Below, in pieces: positions 1-53,012 of a stretch of DNA of 64,000 bases (positions within the stretch are counted from its first letter, which is position 1; every line of letters starts with the position of its first letter). The notes beneath the pieces are model-generated. The model saw only the letters and a list, made by a program, of their open reading frames with translations, ran no database searches and had not been told where the DNA came from. The stretch covers positions 124,001 through 188,000 of the forward strand of contig NZ_OLMM01000004.1 of the NCBI RefSeq assembly GCF_900291475.1, in the 5' to 3' direction. Source of the stretch: Acidaminococcus hominis. GTDB lineage: Bacteria; Bacillota; Negativicutes; Acidaminococcales; Acidaminococcaceae. Made by a program: the position numbers and the translations under genes.

Positions 1-952
1 CGAAACCAACGTGGGTGTGTTCGCCGCTGCCGGCAACGCCCACAATGGGTTTGGCCAGGAAGGATACTTCCAGGCCGTTAGCACGGAAGATTTCCTTAAC
101 CAGGGTACGTACCAGAATTTCGTTATCGGCGCATTGCAGGCCGGTGGAGAATTTCCAGTCGATTTCCAGCTGTTCGTTAACGTGGGTCATGTTGCCGTTG
201 GCATCCAGTTGACCTCTTACGCCGCCCACTTCTTTGTGGCCCATTTCCGGTTCCAGGCCATAGTAGCCCAGCACTTCAACGGCTTGTTCCAAAGCGGTAC
301 GCACGTTGCCGCGGGTACGGGCCCAGTATTGTTCCTGCATGATCTGGGAGGAAGACAGGGCAGTTTTGTCCACGTCTTCGGTAGGAGTCTTGACCCAGAA
401 TTCCAATTCGGTAGCGCTGGTAAAGGTTACCTTTTCTACGTCCTTGGGATCAAAGGCCAGACCAGGAACCGTGCCGGCAGCCAGCATGGCTTTGTGGATT
501 TCGCTGGAAACGTATTCCAGGGATTTTTTCAGCAGGTAACGGGAATCCACGAATTCACCGTTGTGCAGCAGGAAGCAAGGTACACGCAGGGTGCCCACCA
601 GTTTGCCGGTTTCAGCATCCACGTGTTCAATATTGTAGTCAACGAACCAGTTTACGGACAGGTCAGCAACCATATCTACACGGGCATCGTTCAGGGAAGC
701 AACGCCGGGCAGTACTACGGAAGAACCGTCGGTTTGGGCCGTATGGCTGTACAGCATGGTTTCCATATCATCCAGCAGCAGGGAAATAGGCACCTTTTCA
801 TCCGTATCGTTGCCGGCAAAGTCAATGCCCATGAAAGATACGAATTTGATTTCAGGATGATTATTCAGCAGAATACGCAAAGTTTCCGGTGTCAATTCAC
901 TGTGTTTAATCACATAAAGCAGGTCGTCTTGATACATGTTGGTTTTATACAT
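1..952 (-). CDS. glnA: Glutamine synthetase, N-terminal part (gene runs off the left edge)
   Basis: Glutamine synthetase joins ammonia to glutamate using ATP in the cytoplasm. Only about 317 N-terminal residues lie in the window. The frame is open from the ATG at 952-950, which follows a GGGGA ribosome site, to the left edge. Residues 180-186 (ATELEFW) fit the glutamate-rich ligand strand, residues 261-267 (QLEIDWK) fit the next conserved block, and residues 301-314 (KPIVGVAGSGEHTH) fit the KP-x2-G-x2-GSG-x-H-x-H substrate/ATP signature. The order of blocks follows type I enzymes, but the class is not certain because the C-terminus is missing. It has its own promoter and leader to the right. 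Confidence 0.85.
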   Translation of the reverse strand, partial: MYKTNMYQDDLLYVIKHSELTPETLRILLNNHPEIKFVSFMGIDFAGNDTDEKVPISLLLDDMETMLYSHTAQTDGSSVVLPGVASLNDARVDMVADLSVNWFVDYNIEHVDAETGKLVGTLRVPCFLLHNGEFVDSRYLLKKSLEYVSSEIHKAMLAAGTVPGLAFDPKDVEKVTFTSATELEFWVKTPTEDVDKTALSSSQIMQEQYWARTRGNVRTALEQAVEVLGYYGLEPEMGHKEVGGVRGQLDANGNMTHVNEQLEIDWKFSTGLQCADNEILVRTLVKEIFRANGLEVSFLAKPIVGVAGSGEHTHVGF

Positions 953-1280
953 GTTTGATTTCCCCTTTCCCTCTTTGGCCCATTGGCTAGCATGCTCAGA
1001 TTCATTTGAGCGGGTTGAACGGGTGGTCCCGTCCTTTGTTATTTTCTTTTAAGTACTTCTGAATTACATGGCTTATTATAGCACACCGCTTTTCATTAAG
1101 CTAGTAAGAAAAGCAATTTTTTCGAACTTTTTTCTTTCTGATTTTCTCTATGTTCGTAAATTCTTGTCTATTTCCTGAATTTGTCGGTGTTTCAGAGTCA
1201 TTTGTCCTTCTAAAAATGAATTTTCCGAACAATACATGGTTTCCCATGGCTAACTATTCCCGTCTTCCGCCGTCAGCTCT
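953..1280 (-). promoter_or_regulatory. Promoter and leader of the glutamine synthetase gene
   Basis: This 328-base gap has no gene. On the minus strand a TATAAT -10 box lies at 1080-1075 and is preceded by TGC, giving an extended -10. The -35 is poor. Transcription would start near 1068 and leave a leader of about 115 bases. In the leader GCTCA/TGAGC and ACGGG/CCCGT can form two small hairpins before the start codon. Whether these regulate the gene cannot be told from sequence. Confidence 0.55.
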
Positions 1281-2430: not shown

Positions 2431-3612
2431 TTAGGACATCATTTTTAAAACATAACCGCAGAACAGACCGGCAAAGTTCCCGATGGCGGCCCCCAAAATG
2501 CCCATAAGCACGCCGATGCCTGCATAGGAAGCATCATAGGCAGAAGCCACAATGGGAGCAGACGCTGCCCCGCCGATATTGGCCAGGGAAGCGGTGGAAA
2601 CCATGCACAGATCCCAATGGAAGAGCTTGGACAGGCCAAACATCAGCACCACGTGAACCACCAGGATAAAGAAGCCGTACACCACCCACATGGGAGCGGC
2701 CAGCAGGTCCAGCACCGAAGCGGTGGAAGCCAAAAGGGAAACCACGGCGTACAGGTACACGCTGGACAGTTCTTCCACGGCGGGCACCTTGCCCAGCGGG
2801 GTCATGGCGCAGATCAGGCCCAACACCGTCACAAACAGGGTGGTCATGGTGCCTTTATCAAACATGGCAAGGCCCACACTCTTTAAAAGGGTGTTCAGGT
2901 TGGCGCCCACGGTTTGGGAAAGAGCAGAAACCAGCAGGGACACGCCAATCAGGAAAATCCAGTCGGCAGAGGTGGCCTTCTTCTTTTCCTTGGCGACTTC
3001 GGCAGCGGCAGCATCGGCCACAGCCTGGAGCTTGGAGGTGTCCGCCTGGGTGGCGGCGTTCCAGCGATTGGCATAGCGCACCCCCAGGAGCAGCAGGGCA
3101 ATCCACACGGAATAGCACACGGTATCCAGGGCCAGGGCGCAGCTGTAGGCGCCGGCGTCCACCGGCAGGGCTGCCTGCATGGCCGCCATATTGGCGGAAC
3201 CGCCCACCCAGGAAGCGTACAGGGCCGCTACCGCACCCCAGGTATCATTGCCCAGGAAGCCTTTAAAAATCGGATAGCCTACAATAAAACCCACAAACAG
3301 GGTCACCGAGCAGCCCAGGAAGATGGCTACCATCCGGCCGCCCAGTTTGGCCAGCTTCCGGAAGTCGCAGCGCAGCAGCATAACAAAGATCATGGCGTAC
3401 AGCAGGTTGTTCTTCAGCGCTTTGTAGGCTTCAGAAACGCCCTTGGAATTGTACAGGCCCATGGTGCAGAAGATCATGTTCAGCACGTAGATCCAGACCA
3501 GGGGAGGAACAATGGAGAAAATCTTCCACTTGGAATATTTTTCCAGGGCCAGCAAGGCGCCGGCCAGAAACATCAGAAAGGCAATATACGTAAAACCACT
3601 GGTGATTACCAT
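2431..3612 (-). CDS. DUF819 family integral membrane protein
   Basis: A 393-residue polytopic membrane protein with about ten hydrophobic segments and a charged loop near residues 195-215 (AAAEVAKEKKKATSADW). Sequence blocks such as ASWVGGSANMAAMQ and NIGGAASAPIV match the DUF819 (YjcL-like) family. Members often sit beside dipeptide epimerases and peptidases and are suspected transporters. That is inference from context; no substrate is shown by the sequence. It lies between the epimerase and the serine hydrolase with 13-27 base gaps, so it is very likely part of the same operon. Confidence 0.75.
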   Translation of the reverse strand: MVITSGFTYIAFLMFLAGALLALEKYSKWKIFSIVPPLVWIYVLNMIFCTMGLYNSKGVSEAYKALKNNLLYAMIFVMLLRCDFRKLAKLGGRMVAIFLGCSVTLFVGFIVGYPIFKGFLGNDTWGAVAALYASWVGGSANMAAMQAALPVDAGAYSCALALDTVCYSVWIALLLLGVRYANRWNAATQADTSKLQAVADAAAAEVAKEKKKATSADWIFLIGVSLLVSALSQTVGANLNTLLKSVGLAMFDKGTMTTLFVTVLGLICAMTPLGKVPAVEELSSVYLYAVVSLLASTASVLDLLAAPMWVVYGFFILVVHVVLMFGLSKLFHWDLCMVSTASLANIGGAASAPIVASAYDASYAGIGVLMGILGAAIGNFAGLFCGYVLKMMS

Positions 3613-3639
3613 ACAAATTCCCCCTTTTTCACACCCCTA

Positions 3640-4734
3640 TTAGTCGTCCAGATACTGGATACCTTCAATGCCCCGGATGCCCAGACCCGGTTCATCAGCC
3701 ACGGTAATTTCTTTTTCGTTAAATACGGCGCCGCCCAGCACCGGGTCCTCAGAGCACAGCACCGGCCCGTCCAGGTCCACCTTGGTGATAATTTGCCGGG
3801 CGCAGGCCAGATGCACGGCTGCGTTGACGCTGACCTTGGCTTCCAGCATACAGCCAATCATGCACTCCACCCCGCTGACCTCTGCCAGGGTGGCAATCTT
3901 CAGGGCATTGGTAAGCCCGCCGCATTTCATCAGTTTGATGTTGATCAGGTCCGCCGCCTGGAGCTGGACGATTTTCAGGGCATCTTCCACGGAGAAGACG
4001 CTTTCGTCAGCCAGGACAGGCACGTAGGACCGGTCAGTGACGTACTTCAAGCCTTCCAGGTCGTGGGCCTTTACCGGCTGTTCCACCAGCTCAATGTCCA
4101 GGCCCCGTTCCTGCATCTGGTTCAGCAGTTTCACTGCCTGCTTGGGAGACCAGGCCTGGTTGGCGTCAATGCGGATCCGGGGTTTGTCCCCCACCGCTGC
4201 CCGGATGGCGGAAAGCCGCTCCACGTCCAGGGACGGGTCGATGCCCACTTTTACCTTCAGGGTATCGTAGCCCCGCTCCACAGCGTTGACTGCGTCCCGG
4301 GCCATTTCTTCCGGGGGATTCACGCTGATGGTCAGGTCGGTGATAATCTGGTTCCGGCTGGCCCCCAGCATCCGGTACACGGGGATTCCGTATTTCTTGC
4401 CGTACAGGTCCCACAGAGCAATGTCCGCAGCCGCTTTGGCGCTGCTGTTTTTCACAATGCACTTCTGCACATCCCGGGTGAGATTCTCGAAATCCTCAAC
4501 GTCCCGGCCCACCAGGGTCTTAATGATGTGGTCCTGGAAAGCGCCGATAATGGCCCCGGTGGTATCCCCGGTAATGGCTCCTGTGGGAGGCGCTTCCCCG
4601 TAGCCTACCTCGCCGGTATCGGTGTGGATTTCCACGATGATATCTTCCACGCTGTTGACTTGCCGCAGGGCGGTTTTAAAGGGCACCCGCAGCGGTACAG
4701 AAATACGGCCCAGCCGTACTTTGGTGATTTTCAT
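3640..4734 (-). CDS. Dipeptide epimerase (L-Ala-D/L-Glu epimerase type, enolase superfamily)
   Basis: A 364-residue enolase-superfamily enzyme. The lysine pair is seen in TLKVKVG (about residue 158) and the metal ligand in RIRIDANQAW, followed by ELVEQPV and ADESVFS blocks with the other metal-binding acids. A second lysine lies in INIKLMKCGG. This pattern fits epimerases that turn L-Ala-D-Glu from murein into L-Ala-L-Glu so peptidases can use it. It lies directly downstream of a PepV-type dipeptidase, which supports that use. Exact dipeptide specificity cannot be read from sequence. Confidence 0.85.
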   Translation of the reverse strand: MKITKVRLGRISVPLRVPFKTALRQVNSVEDIIVEIHTDTGEVGYGEAPPTGAITGDTTGAIIGAFQDHIIKTLVGRDVEDFENLTRDVQKCIVKNSSAKAAADIALWDLYGKKYGIPVYRMLGASRNQIITDLTISVNPPEEMARDAVNAVERGYDTLKVKVGIDPSLDVERLSAIRAAVGDKPRIRIDANQAWSPKQAVKLLNQMQERGLDIELVEQPVKAHDLEGLKYVTDRSYVPVLADESVFSVEDALKIVQLQAADLINIKLMKCGGLTNALKIATLAEVSGVECMIGCMLEAKVSVNAAVHLACARQIITKVDLDGPVLCSEDPVLGGAVFNEKEITVADEPGLGIRGIEGIQYLDD

Positions 4735-46196: not shown

Positions 46197-47432
46197 TTAT
46201 TTCTTCATGTAATGGGGATTGTATTTGTCTCTGATAGCGCGTCCCAGAGCTCTGTCATCTTCAGCGGTATCTCGTGCACCAGCATAGCCGTTCTTTTTAG
46301 CTTTTGCCAGCGTACCATAGCCATGATCATTGGCATTGCCACGAACCAGATAGGCCAGAGAATCCGCCACTTTCTTGCGCTTTTCCTGAGGCAGGTTTGC
46401 AATAATCGGTTTAATGCCCCGAATTACTTCCAGTGCTGCGTCACGCGCCTGCTTGCTGTTTTCGTCGCAATCACTGGAGACCACACCAGGGGCGCCCTCA
46501 TCTTCCGTCTTTTTCGGGGGTTCGCCAACCTGGCCAGCCGGTGCCTGCACGTTGCTTTCGTCAGAAGGGTTCGCCGGAGCACCTTTTTCCAGTTCATTTT
46601 CCAGAGCGTCCAGCACATCCGGTTCTTCCTGGGCACCGGGTTCCCCATCATCCTGGGTTTCAGTACCTGCTCGCATCATTTTGGCCAGTTCAGCCACTGC
46701 ATTTTCCAGACGGTCAAGGCGCTCACCGATATCGGTGCCGCCGGCCAGCCCCTCATCTTTTGCCGGTGTTTCCTCTTTCTTTTCATTCTCAGGGTTCAAT
46801 TTGGACGCCTGTTCCAGATCATCCGGCGTGGTGTCCTCGTCTCTGGCAAAGCTTTTCAGCATTCTGCCAAACAGTCCTTGTTTCTTTTCCATCTTTTTCC
46901 CTCCATTTTTGGAATCTCGGATTGATACTTTATGCCCCGCGCGCCCCTGGTTCACTACCGCCACATGGTTACCTCTGATTTCTTTTTGGGTATACCCATT
47001 TTCACCACTTGGTACCCACAGGCAATTGTAGCCGCAGGATATATCGCGCTTGCCATTTTTAATTTCCTGGATCAGCTGTTTATCGTAGACGATCAGATCA
47101 GCCACCATACATTCGCTAAGCTCTCCGTCACCTCGTCTTACATCCCGGCACACACCTTTGGTATAGCGGGAATAATTCGTCGATGTAACATCTTCATTTG
47201 GGTGTTCATCGACTACCGGTTTTCCCTCGAAGGAAGCCAATGCCGCAGCGCTGAACACTTCCTCTTCAGGCCGTTCTACCTGGTAGATCTGCTGAGGCTC
47301 TGGGGCCCCGAATTCAATGCCCCTGTATTCCTGCACGCCAGTTCTTGCAATGGGAACCGACTTACAAATCAGATACCCTTCTGGGGTCTCGATCATGTGA
47401 TCGGAAATCTTGCTGCCGTAAAACGCTCTCAA
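46197..47432 (-). CDS. DUF2213 protein, probable prohead protease/scaffold, TTG start
   Basis: A 411-residue protein. The N-terminal ~180 residues (FYGSKISDHMIETPEGYLIC, GKPVVDEHPNEDVTSTNYSR, GNHVAVVNQGRAGHKV) match DUF2213, thought to be a prohead protease. The rest is a charged, coiled scaffold (residues ~200-370, with EKKEETPAKDE and many acids). I choose the TTG at 47432: it follows GGGAGGTGG by 7 bases and overlaps the muF stop (ATTTGA), whereas an upstream frame to 47516 lies inside muF. Confidence 0.75.
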   Translation of the reverse strand: MRAFYGSKISDHMIETPEGYLICKSVPIARTGVQEYRGIEFGAPEPQQIYQVERPEEEVFSAAALASFEGKPVVDEHPNEDVTSTNYSRYTKGVCRDVRRGDGELSECMVADLIVYDKQLIQEIKNGKRDISCGYNCLWVPSGENGYTQKEIRGNHVAVVNQGRAGHKVSIRDSKNGGKKMEKKQGLFGRMLKSFARDEDTTPDDLEQASKLNPENEKKEETPAKDEGLAGGTDIGERLDRLENAVAELAKMMRAGTETQDDGEPGAQEEPDVLDALENELEKGAPANPSDESNVQAPAGQVGEPPKKTEDEGAPGVVSSDCDENSKQARDAALEVIRGIKPIIANLPQEKRKKVADSLAYLVRGNANDHGYGTLAKAKKNGYAGARDTAEDDRALGRAIRDKYNPHYMKK

Positions 47433-48265
47433 ATAGCACCACCTCCCGTTATTTTCTTGAAGCCGGCCAATGTCATACTGGTAATTCGGCCGCCACGGTA
47501 AACCTTGTGGGGCCACTTCACATCGTCATAGTCAAGCAGGGGTTCAGCATAACACCGGCAGTTTGGGAATTCCCCCGCGTGGTAGGATCCATAATCTTTC
47601 ATCCCGATCAGCTTTTCCGGGCTGGGCGGGTCACTCCAGTTAACCAGTACCCCGTCCATATGCGCATGGGAGCTGCGGACCCTTGCGTCTTCGCTGGTCC
47701 TCCACACATACCACTCTGCGCCAATACGCTGTGCCCGTACCCGGGTTAGTGCCGTGGCTGCCTTTGAGGTTTCCGTCCTGGCAATCAGCCGGGCTTTTGC
47801 CTCGGTCAGGTCTGAGAACCGGTTCATGATGTCTGCTTTCAGGTCTTCCGGCCGCACACCGGCTTCATAGCCTTCGGCCATCGCTCTGGCAAGGGCCTGG
47901 GTCGCGTCAGCCGGTACCGACTTTATAAGTTCTGCATTCCGGTCTATGATCTCTCGGAATGCATTGGACTTATTCAATTCCTTAGTAAGTGCATAATAGA
48001 TTTCGGTTCCCTTGGATCCAGCTGCAGCCGCTTCTCTCCAGGTTCTGTAGCCATTCTGCATAACCTGGGTAGCCATGGCCATAGCGGCCATTCTTGCAGC
48101 AGCATCCATAGTAGGTGACCGTGCCATCTCTCGCAGCATCGTAATAGCCTGGGTGGGGGTAGAAGCTGTTTCCAGCTTCCTCCGCATCCGCCTCACGATA
48201 CCTTTGATAGCAGCCTGGTAGCGCTTTTCTACAACGCGCCTGGGCTTGAATTTCTCCTTGTTCAT
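47429..48265 (-). CDS. MuF-like minor head protein
   Basis: A 278-residue protein of the Mu gpF/SPP1 gp7 family. The family core is ARTETSKAATALTRVRAQRI followed by EWYVWRTSEDARVRSSHAHM-DGVLV, and GEFPNCRCYAEPLL, a known signature with Cys residues. It binds portal and genome during packaging. Unlike many MuF proteins it has no C-terminal toxin; that kind of domain lies on the portal here. It starts 400 bases after the portal stop, in contrast to the usual small gap. Confidence 0.85.
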   Translation of the reverse strand: MNKEKFKPRRVVEKRYQAAIKGIVRRMRRKLETASTPTQAITMLREMARSPTMDAAARMAAMAMATQVMQNGYRTWREAAAAGSKGTEIYYALTKELNKSNAFREIIDRNAELIKSVPADATQALARAMAEGYEAGVRPEDLKADIMNRFSDLTEAKARLIARTETSKAATALTRVRAQRIGAEWYVWRTSEDARVRSSHAHMDGVLVNWSDPPSPEKLIGMKDYGSYHAGEFPNCRCYAEPLLDYDDVKWPHKVYRGGRITSMTLAGFKKITGGGAI

Positions 48266-48280
48266 AATCGTATCTCCGCT

Positions 48281-48308
48281 TTGACTTTCAACATAAAAGC
48301 GTTATAAT
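48281..48308 (+). promoter_or_regulatory. Promoter of small RNA 1
   Basis: TTGACT (48281-48286), a 16-base spacer and TATAAT (48303-48308) on the plus strand, opposite to the late operon. Confidence 0.75.
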
Positions 48309-48314
48309 GTGGCT

Positions 48315-48412
48315 ACAAGAGCTTTAAGGTGGGCAAAAGAAACGGTCTGTTTGCTCGGTAACCCCAGATTAGTGAATCGTCTTTCTGGGATCTTAAAGCT
48401 CTTTATCATTTT
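48315..48412 (+). ncRNA. Small RNA 1 of a three-RNA array
   Basis: About 98 bases. A perfect 12-bp closing stem, AAGAGCTTTAAG (48317-48328) with CTTAAAGCTCTT (48392-48403), encloses two hairpins: P2, GGGCAAA (48331-48337) with TTTGCTC (48350-48356) around a 12-base loop ending GGTCTG; and P3, CCCAGA (48363-48368) with TCTGGG (48384-48389) around a loop beginning TTAGT. The stem is followed by a T-rich stretch that overlaps the -35 of the next promoter. No useful reading frame. I do not recognise the family. Confidence 0.75.
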
Positions 48413-48439
48413 GACTTTTTAACGAAAAAATAGTATATT
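48411..48439 (+). promoter_or_regulatory. Promoter of small RNA 2
   Basis: TTGACT (48411-48416), a 17-base spacer and TATATT (48434-48439). Confidence 0.7.
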
Positions 48440-48445
48440 GAAAAC

Positions 48446-48555
48446 ATCAAGAATAGCTAATTGACAACAGAAAGTCGCCACTGCTGTTAAAGAATGATGA
48501 GGACCGGGTTTCGACCCCGGAGGACGTTCATCCAATTAGCCATTCTTATTTTTTT
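48446..48555 (+). ncRNA. Small RNA 2 of a three-RNA array
   Basis: About 110 bases. The closing stem is AAGAATAGCTAATTG (48449-48463) with CAATTAGCCATTCTT (48533-48547), 14 pairs with one A/C mismatch, followed by ATTTTTTT, a good terminator. Inside are AACAG/CTGTT (48466-48470, 48484-48488) and a longer arm GATGA/TCATC (48496-48500, 48528-48532) carrying CCGGG/CCCGG (48504-48508, 48516-48520). The plan is again a closing stem with two arms, but loops and arms differ from RNAs 1 and 3. Confidence 0.75.
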
Positions 48556-48581
48556 GACTTTTAGCTGGAAAATGTTATAAT
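48554..48581 (+). promoter_or_regulatory. Promoter of small RNA 3
   Basis: TTGACT (48554-48559), a 16-base spacer and TATAAT (48576-48581). It begins inside the T-tract of RNA 2. Confidence 0.75.
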
Positions 48582-48587
48582 TTAAAT

Positions 48588-48683
48588 AGAAAGAGCTTTG
48601 AAGTTGGTAACGCAAGTGGTCTGGTTACCAAGCAATGTCCAATTAGTTTACATGCTTTGGACGCTTCAAGGCTCTTTATTTTT
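48588..48683 (+). ncRNA. Small RNA 3 of a three-RNA array
   Basis: About 96 bases. The closing stem is AAGAGCTTTGAAG (48591-48603) with CTTCAAGGCTCTT (48664-48676), all paired including one G-U, then TATTTTT. P2 is TTGGTAAC (48604-48611) with GTTACCAA (48624-48631), perfect, around a 12-base loop ending GGTCTG; P3 is GTCCAA (48637-48642) with TTGGAC (48657-48662) around a loop beginning TTAGT. The 3' end is antisense to the last codons and stop of the portal gene (48666). Confidence 0.78.
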
Positions 48684-50591
48684 GGAATAATTTTCGTCCC
48701 ATCCGGTAAGCAGGAAGGTAAATTTATCATCAAAGAAAGTTGGTGAAACAACTGCAGTATAATTGTCTTTTCTTATATACCACCTACCTCGATCTGTCTT
48801 CAGCTGCCCTGTTTCTATCACATTCGGAAGATTTGAAAGGAACTTATCTACATCAACCCCTTGTTCAGACCGTTCTTTAATTATATGTTTTAGCCCCATC
48901 CAATTATCGCCCCATGGAAGGGCAATCCCTCCGATATCCTCACGGGTAAAAGCATCAGGCACATATCCGCTTTGTAGTTTTCTTAAGAGATTAATAGCTT
49001 CAAGGCCTTTATGTTCCCCAGCTATAGGTTCCCCAATCTGGTTCTTATATGCTTCTCCTTTGGAATATCTAGGGGCTTTTTCTTTATGCTTAGGTTTTTC
49101 AGCACTTCCGTTGCCAAACTGTCCATTATCGGCCCTGGGGTGCTTACTTTCATCCCAGTTCTCGTCGCTGTCCCTACCGGGCAGTTCCTGGGGCTCCTGC
49201 TGCGGCAAACCCAACAGGCTGCCGAGCTCTCCTTCATTCTCCAGGTCTTCAGGGGCCTTCATGATATCGGCTTCCGTAATGTTCGTCCAAACGCCGGTAC
49301 GTTCAGACTGCTGCTTCAGCTCCTTAAGGGCGGTCCGTTTGGATACCAGGCCGGCATTAAGTGCCGTGACTACGTTCTCAGTCCCGGATTTCGCCAGCTC
49401 TGCTCGTTCCTTGTCATTGGGCTCAGAAACAGGGTCAAAGTCGTAGTCCAGATCATCCGGCACAGCGCCGAATGCACTCATGCACACCACTGGCAAAAGC
49501 TTGTCCAGAATCGGCCGGAGCTTGGACTCCTGTTCTTCGGCAATCATATCGTAGTAGTTCTGAAGGTCCGATTCACCAGTAGCGTTCATTCCGGCAGGAG
49601 ACCGCCCGAACAGCTTAGTAACCGGGATACGGGCAGCACCAGCAACGTCCATCATGAACTGAGAATAAACATCGGCCAGTCCGCCAAAAGTGTACTGGTG
49701 GGTTTCCATGCTGTCGTCCTTATCCATGATCTGCAGCCCCATATTGCTCATCAGCCAGTTCTGGGCCTGTACCGTGTGGTATAGCTCAGCCTTGGACTGT
49801 TCGTCTGCTGAACCGAGCATCTCCCCTAAATCAGCCATTTTCAGGATCCTCAAGTTTGCTACAAACGTTAGCTGCGCAATATTCCAGGAAACATTATCCC
49901 GCTTCTTCAAATCGTCAAAGACCGCCTCAACAACAGAGGCTCCCCATTGATTTTCTGCCAGGCTTTCCCAGTATGGCAGATCATCCCCAATAAACCGCAG
50001 TACGCGGCTATGGTGGACATTGCAAACAGTTCCACTTGCAGGATCTGAAATCTGGTAGTACTTGGGAAGCCCGTATTCCGGGTCCCCGATATCAGTAATC
50101 AGTTCTCCAGAGGGACTTACCCCGTTCCAGCGGTCAAAGTTCAGAATGCCGCAGAAATCACCAGGAAAGATTCTCTCTAGGTCCAGGGGCTGATCCAGCA
50201 TATCTCCCTGGCCCTTGATCATGAGAACACCGATGGCCCCTCCAAAGAGGCGCCCCCACTCCATCCCCTCTTTCAAAGAATTAATTACGCGGGTTTGCCG
50301 GAGAGCCCTTTCAAACCGCTTCATCGTTGCCGGAGCCACTTCTGTGCTTAGCGTAATCCAGTTTTTCAACATATCCGAGGGAATCGTGTCCACAATGCGG
50401 CGGACAATCCACTGTTCCCGGTACAGCGTATTCAGCAGCGCATAATTCCTTGTGATCCGCTGCGGGATGTACTCAGTTGCTTCCAGCAGATTAGGGGTCC
50501 CTACGCCCAGCCTGGCCAGCGCATTAGAAAAGCCATCCTGGGCTTTCCCCCGGATGGCGCTATTTTGTCTTTTTTTCTTGTATCTAGGCAT
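48666..50591 (-). CDS. Portal protein (DUF1073 type) with C-terminal BECR-nuclease-like domain
   Basis: A 641-residue protein. Residues ~1-440 are a DUF1073/phage portal 3-type portal: NYALLNTLYREQWIVRRIVD, VTKLFGRSPAGMNATGESDL and the C-terminal clip region fit. After a polar linker with WDESKHPRADNGQFG (~488-502), residues ~540-635 form an extra domain: IALPWGDNWMGLKHIIKERS with His ~569, then VIETGQLKTDRGRWYIRKDN and FTFLLTGWDENY. This resembles phage nucleases of the Barnase/EndoU/ColicinE5-D/RelE type found on MuF proteins. ATG follows GGAGGCTGGCAA. Confidence 0.8.
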   Translation of the reverse strand: MPRYKKKRQNSAIRGKAQDGFSNALARLGVGTPNLLEATEYIPQRITRNYALLNTLYREQWIVRRIVDTIPSDMLKNWITLSTEVAPATMKRFERALRQTRVINSLKEGMEWGRLFGGAIGVLMIKGQGDMLDQPLDLERIFPGDFCGILNFDRWNGVSPSGELITDIGDPEYGLPKYYQISDPASGTVCNVHHSRVLRFIGDDLPYWESLAENQWGASVVEAVFDDLKKRDNVSWNIAQLTFVANLRILKMADLGEMLGSADEQSKAELYHTVQAQNWLMSNMGLQIMDKDDSMETHQYTFGGLADVYSQFMMDVAGAARIPVTKLFGRSPAGMNATGESDLQNYYDMIAEEQESKLRPILDKLLPVVCMSAFGAVPDDLDYDFDPVSEPNDKERAELAKSGTENVVTALNAGLVSKRTALKELKQQSERTGVWTNITEADIMKAPEDLENEGELGSLLGLPQQEPQELPGRDSDENWDESKHPRADNGQFGNGSAEKPKHKEKAPRYSKGEAYKNQIGEPIAGEHKGLEAINLLRKLQSGYVPDAFTREDIGGIALPWGDNWMGLKHIIKERSEQGVDVDKFLSNLPNVIETGQLKTDRGRWYIRKDNYTAVVSPTFFDDKFTFLLTGWDENYSKNKEP

Positions 50592-52488: not shown

Positions 52489-52614
52489 AAACGCTTCCAA
52501 TCTCTTCGTGTTTCAAAGCGAAGCATAATTTATAATTTCTTTATTTTAACATAAATTCTTTATTTAAAGTCGAATAATCTCGAATTTGAGAAAATATAGA
52601 AACATTTTTATTAA

Positions 52615-52643
52615 TTGACTAACAGCTTAAGTTGAGGTATATT
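52615..52643 (+). promoter_or_regulatory. Promoter of small RNA 4
   Basis: TTGACT (52615-52620), a 17-base spacer and TATATT (52638-52643); the same -35 as the 48-kb RNA array. Confidence 0.65.
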
Positions 52644-52649
52644 ATAGGC

Positions 52650-52775
52650 GGCTTATGTTTGGTTCACAGAACAATCTAAATGACTTCGCGAATCATTTGG
52701 CCAAGGACAATTTTTACTTCAATATCCAGTTGCCCCCCCGAAAAAAGGCCCTAGATTTATCTGGGGTCTTTTTTC
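52650..52775 (+). ncRNA. Small RNA 4
   Basis: About 125 bases. It has an AAATGA-C-TTC / GAATCATTT hairpin (52678-52698) with one bulged C, and ends in GGCCCTAGAT / ATCTGGGGTC (52747-52768, with G-U pairs) and six Ts. It is not obviously a member of the RNA 1/3 family because a long closing stem is lacking. No sizeable frame begins inside it after a ribosome site. Confidence 0.55.
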
Positions 52776-52792
52776 GTATTTACTATATATGC

Positions 52793-52818
52793 TATAATAT
52801 ATTCGCACGGGGCGCCCC
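52793..52818 (+). promoter_or_regulatory. Promoter and palindrome for the 53-codon gene
   Basis: Extended -10 TGCTATAAT (TATAAT at 52793-52798) without a good -35. The palindrome GGGGCGCCCC (52809-52818) lies at the likely start site and could be an operator. Confidence 0.5.
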
Positions 52819-52850
52819 GCCTCAATTCTTTACGAAAAGAGGTGGCAGCT

Positions 52851-53012
52851 GTGAACAAAAAACATAAGTCTAACGTCATCTTCAGGACTTGGCTCAAAGA
52901 TCCTCGTACTGGAAAAATCTTATACGCCCGTAGCTACGGCTTGCGTGCTTGGCCCATCCCTGTTGATGACCTAAAAGATGACTCACAGTCTCGTGCAACT
53001 AAGTCTGAATAG
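52851..53012 (+). CDS. Small conserved-looking basic protein, 53 residues
   Basis: Starts with GTG after AGAGGTGGCAGCT and reads 53 codons to TAG. The sequence NVIFRTWLKDPRTGKILYAR, then SYGLRAWPIPV and an acidic DDLKDDS tail, is compact and ordered; I recall similar short hypothetical proteins in Firmicute phages. It lies on the plus strand, against all other genes in the prophage visible here, with its own promoter and terminator. This suggests expression in the lysogen. Function unknown. Confidence 0.65.
   Translation: MNKKHKSNVIFRTWLKDPRTGKILYARSYGLRAWPIPVDDLKDDSQSRATKSE

Follow-up and report, generated by a model that had tools for sequence, protein, structure and literature searches.

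What purpose could an array of small RNAs serve between the muF and portal genes of a phage late module? In the window analysed here (the whole stretch of DNA, 64,000 nt of Acidaminococcus hominis), a gap of 400 bases runs from the muF start at 48265 to the portal stop at 48666. Both genes are on the minus strand, and an earlier note, made from the sequence alone, had placed three tandem units on the plus strand of the gap and suggested an RNA system expressed in the lysogen. The data presented confirm the three units from gene coordinates, promoters and folds (Table 1) and indicate that they are probably cognate antidotes, i.e. RNA antitoxins or immunity RNAs, for PBECR1, a predicted RNase domain fused to the portal protein.

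Three folded units in the muF-portal gap

All three promoters are present, good matches to the sigma-70 type with the spacers of 16, 17 and 16 bases first described, and the T-rich ends of the first two units can be seen in the sequence to extend into the -35 of the following promoter, as had also been observed. The sequence likewise supports an array that lies inside the late module with opposite-strand promoters of its own. The further claim, that each unit has a closing stem and a T-rich end, held for the folds, all three of which were found, but a terminator scan of the plus strand flagged unit 3 alone; unit 3 overlaps the portal end by 12 bases. Promoters 1 and 3 have the top two scores among the 22 promoter-like sites in the 18 kb scanned, a count that is not above chance (shuffle mean 18.3, sd 4.6).

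Table 1. Position of the array and of its neighbouring genes in the window
Feature	Position	Strand	Remarks
muF gene (PF04233)	47429..48265	-	next gene of late module
promoter 1, TTGACT-16-TATAAT	48281..48308	+	11/12
RNA unit 1, three-way junction	48317..48403	+	P1 14/14, P2 7/7, P3 6/6 paired; homologue in L021
promoter 2, TTGACT-17-TATATT	48411..48439	+	10/12; -35 within unit 1 T-rich tail
RNA unit 2, three-way junction, second type	48449..48547	+	P1 14/15, P2 5/5, P3 5/5; relatives in L063, L078, L080
promoter 3, TTGACT-16-TATAAT, TG ahead of -10	48554..48581	+	11/12
RNA unit 3, unit 1 paralogue	48590..48677	+	P1 15/15, P2 7/7, P3 6/6; then T-rich stretch
portal gene (PF06381, Phage_portal_3; PHROG portal) with C-terminal PBECR1	48666..50591	-
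PBECR1 match (PF18809), portal residues 547-617; DNA at portal 3' end	48735..48953	-

The array contains two RNA types, one represented by units 1 and 3 and the other by unit 2, which differs in sequence. A strict junction finder written for the purpose recovers all three, and the shuffle z-scores of the trimmed units are -5.3, -3.3 and -5.8 for units 1, 2 and 3, respectively. When the gap was subjected to 1000 dinucleotide shuffles, three junctions were found in none, at least two in 6 and at least one in 94. Among approximately 100 junctions on both strands of the 64 kb, only units 1 (14 pairs) and 3 (15 pairs) have an outer helix of at least 12 pairs, the next longest having 11. Kissing of P2 and P3, apparent by eye in several of the PBECR1-associated RNAs described below, was unsupported by shuffles (p 0.37, 0.88 and 0.06 for the window units and 0.08-0.87 for ten other RNAs) and no claim is made for it.

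No Rfam family was matched at gathering threshold anywhere in the window, and a search of the gap at E values up to 10 gave unrelated weak matches only, with RF02924 not among them. BLASTN of the gap against phage records, PADLOC, and ARAGORN searches for tRNA in the window and six loci were all without a match. Elsewhere in the window, a fourth plus-strand TTGACT-17-TATATT site (52615-52643) is followed downstream by an inverted repeat of 17 pairs (52739-52776), and a 70-codon plus-strand ORF (52655-52867) covers the same stretch; 52600-52780 is possibly a further small RNA or small gene.

RNAs linked to one PBECR1 subgroup

The portal gene itself points to the likely purpose of the array. 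Its C-terminal domain matches PBECR1 at 34.6 bits against a Pfam cut-off of 27.6, and a Pfam search at E values up to 0.1 found Phage_portal_3 and PBECR1 only in the portal, with no toxin of the ToxN/CptN/TenpN group. PMC5512222 describes PBECR domains as a group of predicted RNases that occur fused to MuF and to portal (in the window, to portal) and are carried by polyvalent proteins predicted to be packaged and injected; no RNA partner is described in the covered passages of that paper. A structure model of the domain (pLDDT 85.2, pTM 0.77) gave a best Z of 6.5 in a fold search, to a contact-dependent-inhibition (CDI) toxin, followed by BrnT, ParE, CDI and RelE chains at Z values of about 4-5.3, while Foldseek gave no match at E 0.001. 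These fold matches of the model are weak, though compatible with a BECR fold.

A viral-contig scan yielded 37 portal loci, 34 of which have a readable portal ORF, some of the others being truncated where the contig or stretch ends. A PBECR1 profile run over all ORFs of the 37 loci matched only the window's own contig (L020) and one other (L021), and when Pfam was applied to nine portals besides that of the window, PBECR1 was found in L021 alone (38.8 bits). Near the gap, three promoter-like sites on the opposite strand were counted in L020 and likewise in L021; in six other portal loci one or two were found in the 2.1 kb examined. Alignment of the L021 RNA to units 1 and 3, three sequences only, gives 28 pairs with 97.6% of cells paired, and both sides have changed in 14 of the 28 pairs, a result obtained in 0 of 500 shuffles. 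The RNA fold is conserved between the two loci.

A model built from these three sequences (R1) and run over 25 sources found real units in the window and L021 only, its four remaining matches being one at E 3.3 and three echoes on the reverse strand. R1 with stricter filters recovered only the window's own genome among 380 genomes of the class, a pattern search with the motif of units 1 and 3 recovered only the own and L021 contigs, and in portal loci without PBECR1 the model found nothing convincing. So far the unit 1/3 type has been seen in just two phages.

Further RNAs were found when PBECR1 relatives were collected from genome contigs and viral contigs. The close group of PBECR1 loci comprises the window, L021 and six carriers that are not portals (L063, L074, L076, L078, L080 and L081; 129 to 204 residues), and in all eight a candidate opposite-strand three-helix RNA lies behind the domain. 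L074, L076 and L080 (at a contig edge) have one RNA each and L063 has two, one segmented and the other only folded, whereas the L081 candidate is the weakest, with P2 at 6/9 and a negative promoter search. In L078 a single PBECR1 gene is followed by four different junction RNAs (3340-3771, minus strand) that come after one promoter of perfect consensus sequence (TTGACA-17-TATAAT), possibly a polycistronic RNA array. L075, L077 and L079 are duplicate stretches of L074, L076 and L078. The junction finder misses the RNAs of L021, L063, L074 and L081 and one of the four in L078, and these were segmented by hand. Unit 2 and eight RNAs of the non-portal carriers have a core in common, in which 12 columns are invariant and AGAAA marks the first loop; the alignment of these nine sequences is good in the core only, so no model was built from it.

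The carriers in L063 and L081 lie near Baseplate_J genes, which shows that the RNA tracks PBECR1 and not the portal. More precisely, it goes with a single subgroup of PBECR1 and with neither portal nor muF: no such RNA was found, by eye and by promoter scan, at the divergent PBECR1 loci L064 and L082-L085. That survey covered L057 by R1 only; L087 lay outside it, and PBECR1 matches in Helicobacter, Campylobacter and other phage records lay outside the RNA survey. The matches to a unit 2 pattern outside the own contig (L067-L071) look like chance, being without PBECR1 and without a promoter into the motif. Taken together, the L021 homologue with its compensatory changes and the recurrence behind PBECR1 elsewhere support the view that the units are real RNAs. 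The earlier expectation that the same array would be found at the portal-muF junction of other phages was borne out by L021, with one unit, but the position that recurs elsewhere is behind PBECR1.

The position behind such a domain has a known significance. In polymorphic toxins the immunity gene sits in the slot behind the toxin, and for MuF toxins of temperate phages a small ORF was proposed as the protective gene in 89.4% of 191 muf toxin genes (both as described in PMC5576092). Like the portal considered here, the MuF toxins in that description are phage head proteins with a variable C-terminal toxin domain and a proposed protective gene behind it, although their protective gene is a small ORF and the window has RNA. 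Portal tails also vary: PBECR1 is present in the window and L021 and other tails in L023-L027, and PBECR1 is the only recognised toxin-type domain among them. A slot survey was made of ten PBECR1-less portal loci with a gap, leaving out loci in which the portal overlaps the next gene, and all ten have a same-strand small ORF in the slot. In six of them (L023-L027 and L031) this ORF has 59-89 codons and a Shine-Dalgarno motif, L023 and L024 giving the same product, and in four (L036, L037, L047 and L054) it is without the motif. The products of these six ORFs may be immunity proteins against the unnamed tail domains of their portals. The slot products of L023 and L027 are alike by eye. The L021 gap has no same-strand ORF of 35 codons, and the window gap holds same-strand ORFs of 35-58 codons, none with a Shine-Dalgarno motif, i.e. 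no such candidate for an immunity-protein gene was found right behind the portal.

Skipping-rope RNA beside PBECR2 and PBECR3 genes

One of the L078 RNAs has a sub-threshold match to RF02924 (24.1 bits where the cut-off is 36.7; E 0.0025 in 461 bases and 0.15 in 28 kb). It is the nearest formal link of the junction RNAs to that family and drew attention to it. RF02924 is the skipping-rope RNA, for which no function is given in the descriptions covered. A search of 379 genomes of the class gave 100 matches in 73 genomes, above the cut-off in 70, and Pfam PBECR2 gave 61 matches in 45 of 379 class genomes, 11 of the 61 being under the curated cut-off. A skipping-rope RNA lies within 500 bases of 54 of the 61 PBECR2 matches. 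Conversely, 60 of the 100 RNAs are within 1.5 kb of PBECR2, 59 of these within 180 bases, and all 60 are downstream of the gene, 54 on the same strand and 6 on the opposite strand; the remaining 40 have no PBECR2 match nearby. By genome, 41 have both RNA and PBECR2, 32 the RNA alone and 4 PBECR2 alone (Fisher p 3e-30, in a test that treats two draws of 379 genomes as one set).

A closer view of 30 skipping-rope loci gave a similar picture. A PBECR2/3-type ORF was found by profile in 18 of the 30, within 170 bases of the RNA in 16 (L104 was not judged), a count that is not independent because 13 of these ORFs went into the profile; the Pfam-based count of 54 out of 61 is independent. When ten ORFs neighbouring skipping-rope RNAs were taken to Pfam, eight matched PBECR2 or PBECR3, six of them above a cut-off, while L103 proved to be ThiC and L102 was without a match. 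The 434-codon gene of L102 (1501-3060), with a skipping-rope RNA 160 bases behind it, looks MuF-like by eye and is possibly another MuF toxin with RNA immunity. The RNAs of L142 and L145 that lie on the opposite strand reach 48.0 and 47.6 bits there, and group II intron matches (661-962, minus strand) lie near the RNA/PBECR pair of L142.

Skipping-rope RNAs are also found beside genes that look damaged or on their own. In L089, L093 and L105 the RNA is above the cut-off beside PBECR2/3 ORFs that seem truncated or split, possibly through sequencing error. L109-L112 have an RNA (around 1501-1583) and no PBECR-type ORF in the stretch examined, and these RNAs differ at only 2-3 of 83 bases from the L115 RNA, whose distance to a PBECR2-like gene that scores just under the cut-off is 20 bases. 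Such cases are expected of an antidote that is useful by itself.

The likeness to the window units is one of size, shape and position: the skipping-rope RNA is about 85 bases long with a closing helix and inner hairpins, and it lies directly behind a PBECR-type nuclease gene, in 6 cases on the opposite strand. The two differ in that the skipping-rope RNA has an extra hairpin between the inner stems (Rfam structure line) where the window units have 6-7 bases, and in that its partner is PBECR2/3, mostly on the same strand, and theirs is PBECR1. It is reported to have a pseudoknot in an Rfam 14 figure legend (PMC7779021), which by our own reading of that legend joins its two loops. The PBECR1 profile had no match in the 30 skipping-rope loci, and a comparison of the PBECR1 and PBECR2/3 profiles, made with shallow alignments, also had none. 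Given these results and the absence of any RF02924 match to the window units, at gathering threshold in the window or at E up to 10 in the gap, support for the parallel comes from the published grouping of PBECR domains.

Candidate RNA antidotes for a predicted virion-borne nuclease

The idea of an RNA system carried in the late module is partly supported, and the system may be expressed in the lysogen; two things escaped the earlier note, the PBECR1 domain of the portal and the similarity to skipping-rope RNA, which lies beside PBECR2/3. Since similar RNAs lie behind PBECR1 in other phages, the units are probably RNA antidotes. While the late genes of the prophage are silent, each unit would be read by host RNA polymerase from its own promoter on the other strand, and this plus-strand transcription would keep up a constant supply of folded RNA. 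On synthesis of the portal, or on delivery of the nuclease by a related virion, the RNA would bind and block the PBECR1 domain, perhaps by substrate mimicry in which it occupies the RNA-binding site, and RNA would be cleaved in cells that lack the antidote. The slot usual for an immunity-protein gene behind a swappable C-terminal toxin domain would here hold RNA genes. This antidote reading explains the position of the units, their own promoters, their movement with PBECR1, the slot ORFs of sister portals and the RNAs that lack a nuclease.

RNA antidotes against toxins are already known. In type III toxin-antitoxin systems, whose RNA neutralises the protein toxin directly, the RNA repeats precede the toxin gene within the same operon and the toxins belong to the ToxN/CptN/TenpN group. 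AbiF and the RNA antitoxin RCd22 are described in PMC12373285 as a prophage-encoded pair in which the RNA neutralises by direct binding. The window units share with both the placement of a small structured RNA beside a toxic protein, here a predicted one, but the predicted nuclease of the window, a PBECR1 domain, is part of a virion portal protein. Unlike type III RNAs, the units are downstream of the portal, on the opposite strand and with a promoter each, rather than upstream in a toxin operon. An RNA in the immunity-gene slot of virion-borne polymorphic toxins was not found in searches of the openly licensed literature.

Alternatively, convergent or antisense transcription from the plus strand might lower portal-nuclease or muF expression in the lysogen, with the folds merely stabilising the transcripts. 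The units are indeed on the opposite strand and convergent with the portal, the stop region of which unit 3 overlaps, but that overlap is so short, and interference so little in need of folded, covarying RNAs, that expression control is unlikely; moreover, most skipping-rope RNAs near PBECR2 (54 of 60) are on the gene's own strand and copies of the RNA occur without the gene. It is also rather improbable that the RNA directs or activates the nuclease, or is its natural substrate, instead of protecting against it. Nuclease and RNA adjoin, and several RNAs per locus, such as the four in L078, could mean several targets; however, RNAs beside broken-looking nuclease ORFs or without any nuclease fit an antidote better, and small ORFs occupy the slot where the tail differs.

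The phi29 packaging RNA is a structural RNA of the portal, and the window units are three-way-junction RNAs that adjoin a portal gene, but a packaging role is most improbable given that related RNAs lie away from the portal, beside other PBECR1 carriers and in some cases near baseplate genes, that R1 found nothing convincing in PBECR1-less portal loci, and that no Rfam family matched at gathering threshold. Functionless chance repeats and promoter-like sequence are just as improbable, for although promoter-like sites are common in the region, shuffling never produced three junctions, and the covariation with L021 and the recurrence behind PBECR1 both speak against chance.

With the antidote reading preferred for the window, a broader proposal can be made, towards which we lean on balance: that phage PBECR nucleases are generally paired with folded immunity RNAs, PBECR1 with junction RNAs and PBECR2/PBECR3 with skipping-rope RNA. 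Portal, baseplate-module and other proteins would carry the nuclease, the RNA of the prophage or host would protect the cell, and nuclease and RNA genes would travel together. If true, such a group-wide pairing would provide a function for skipping-rope RNA and an RNA-based form of polymorphic-toxin immunity. A widespread Rfam family would gain a testable partner, PBECR nucleases would gain a cognate RNA that may mirror the target of the nuclease, and a compact RNA-protein pair would become available for structural work.
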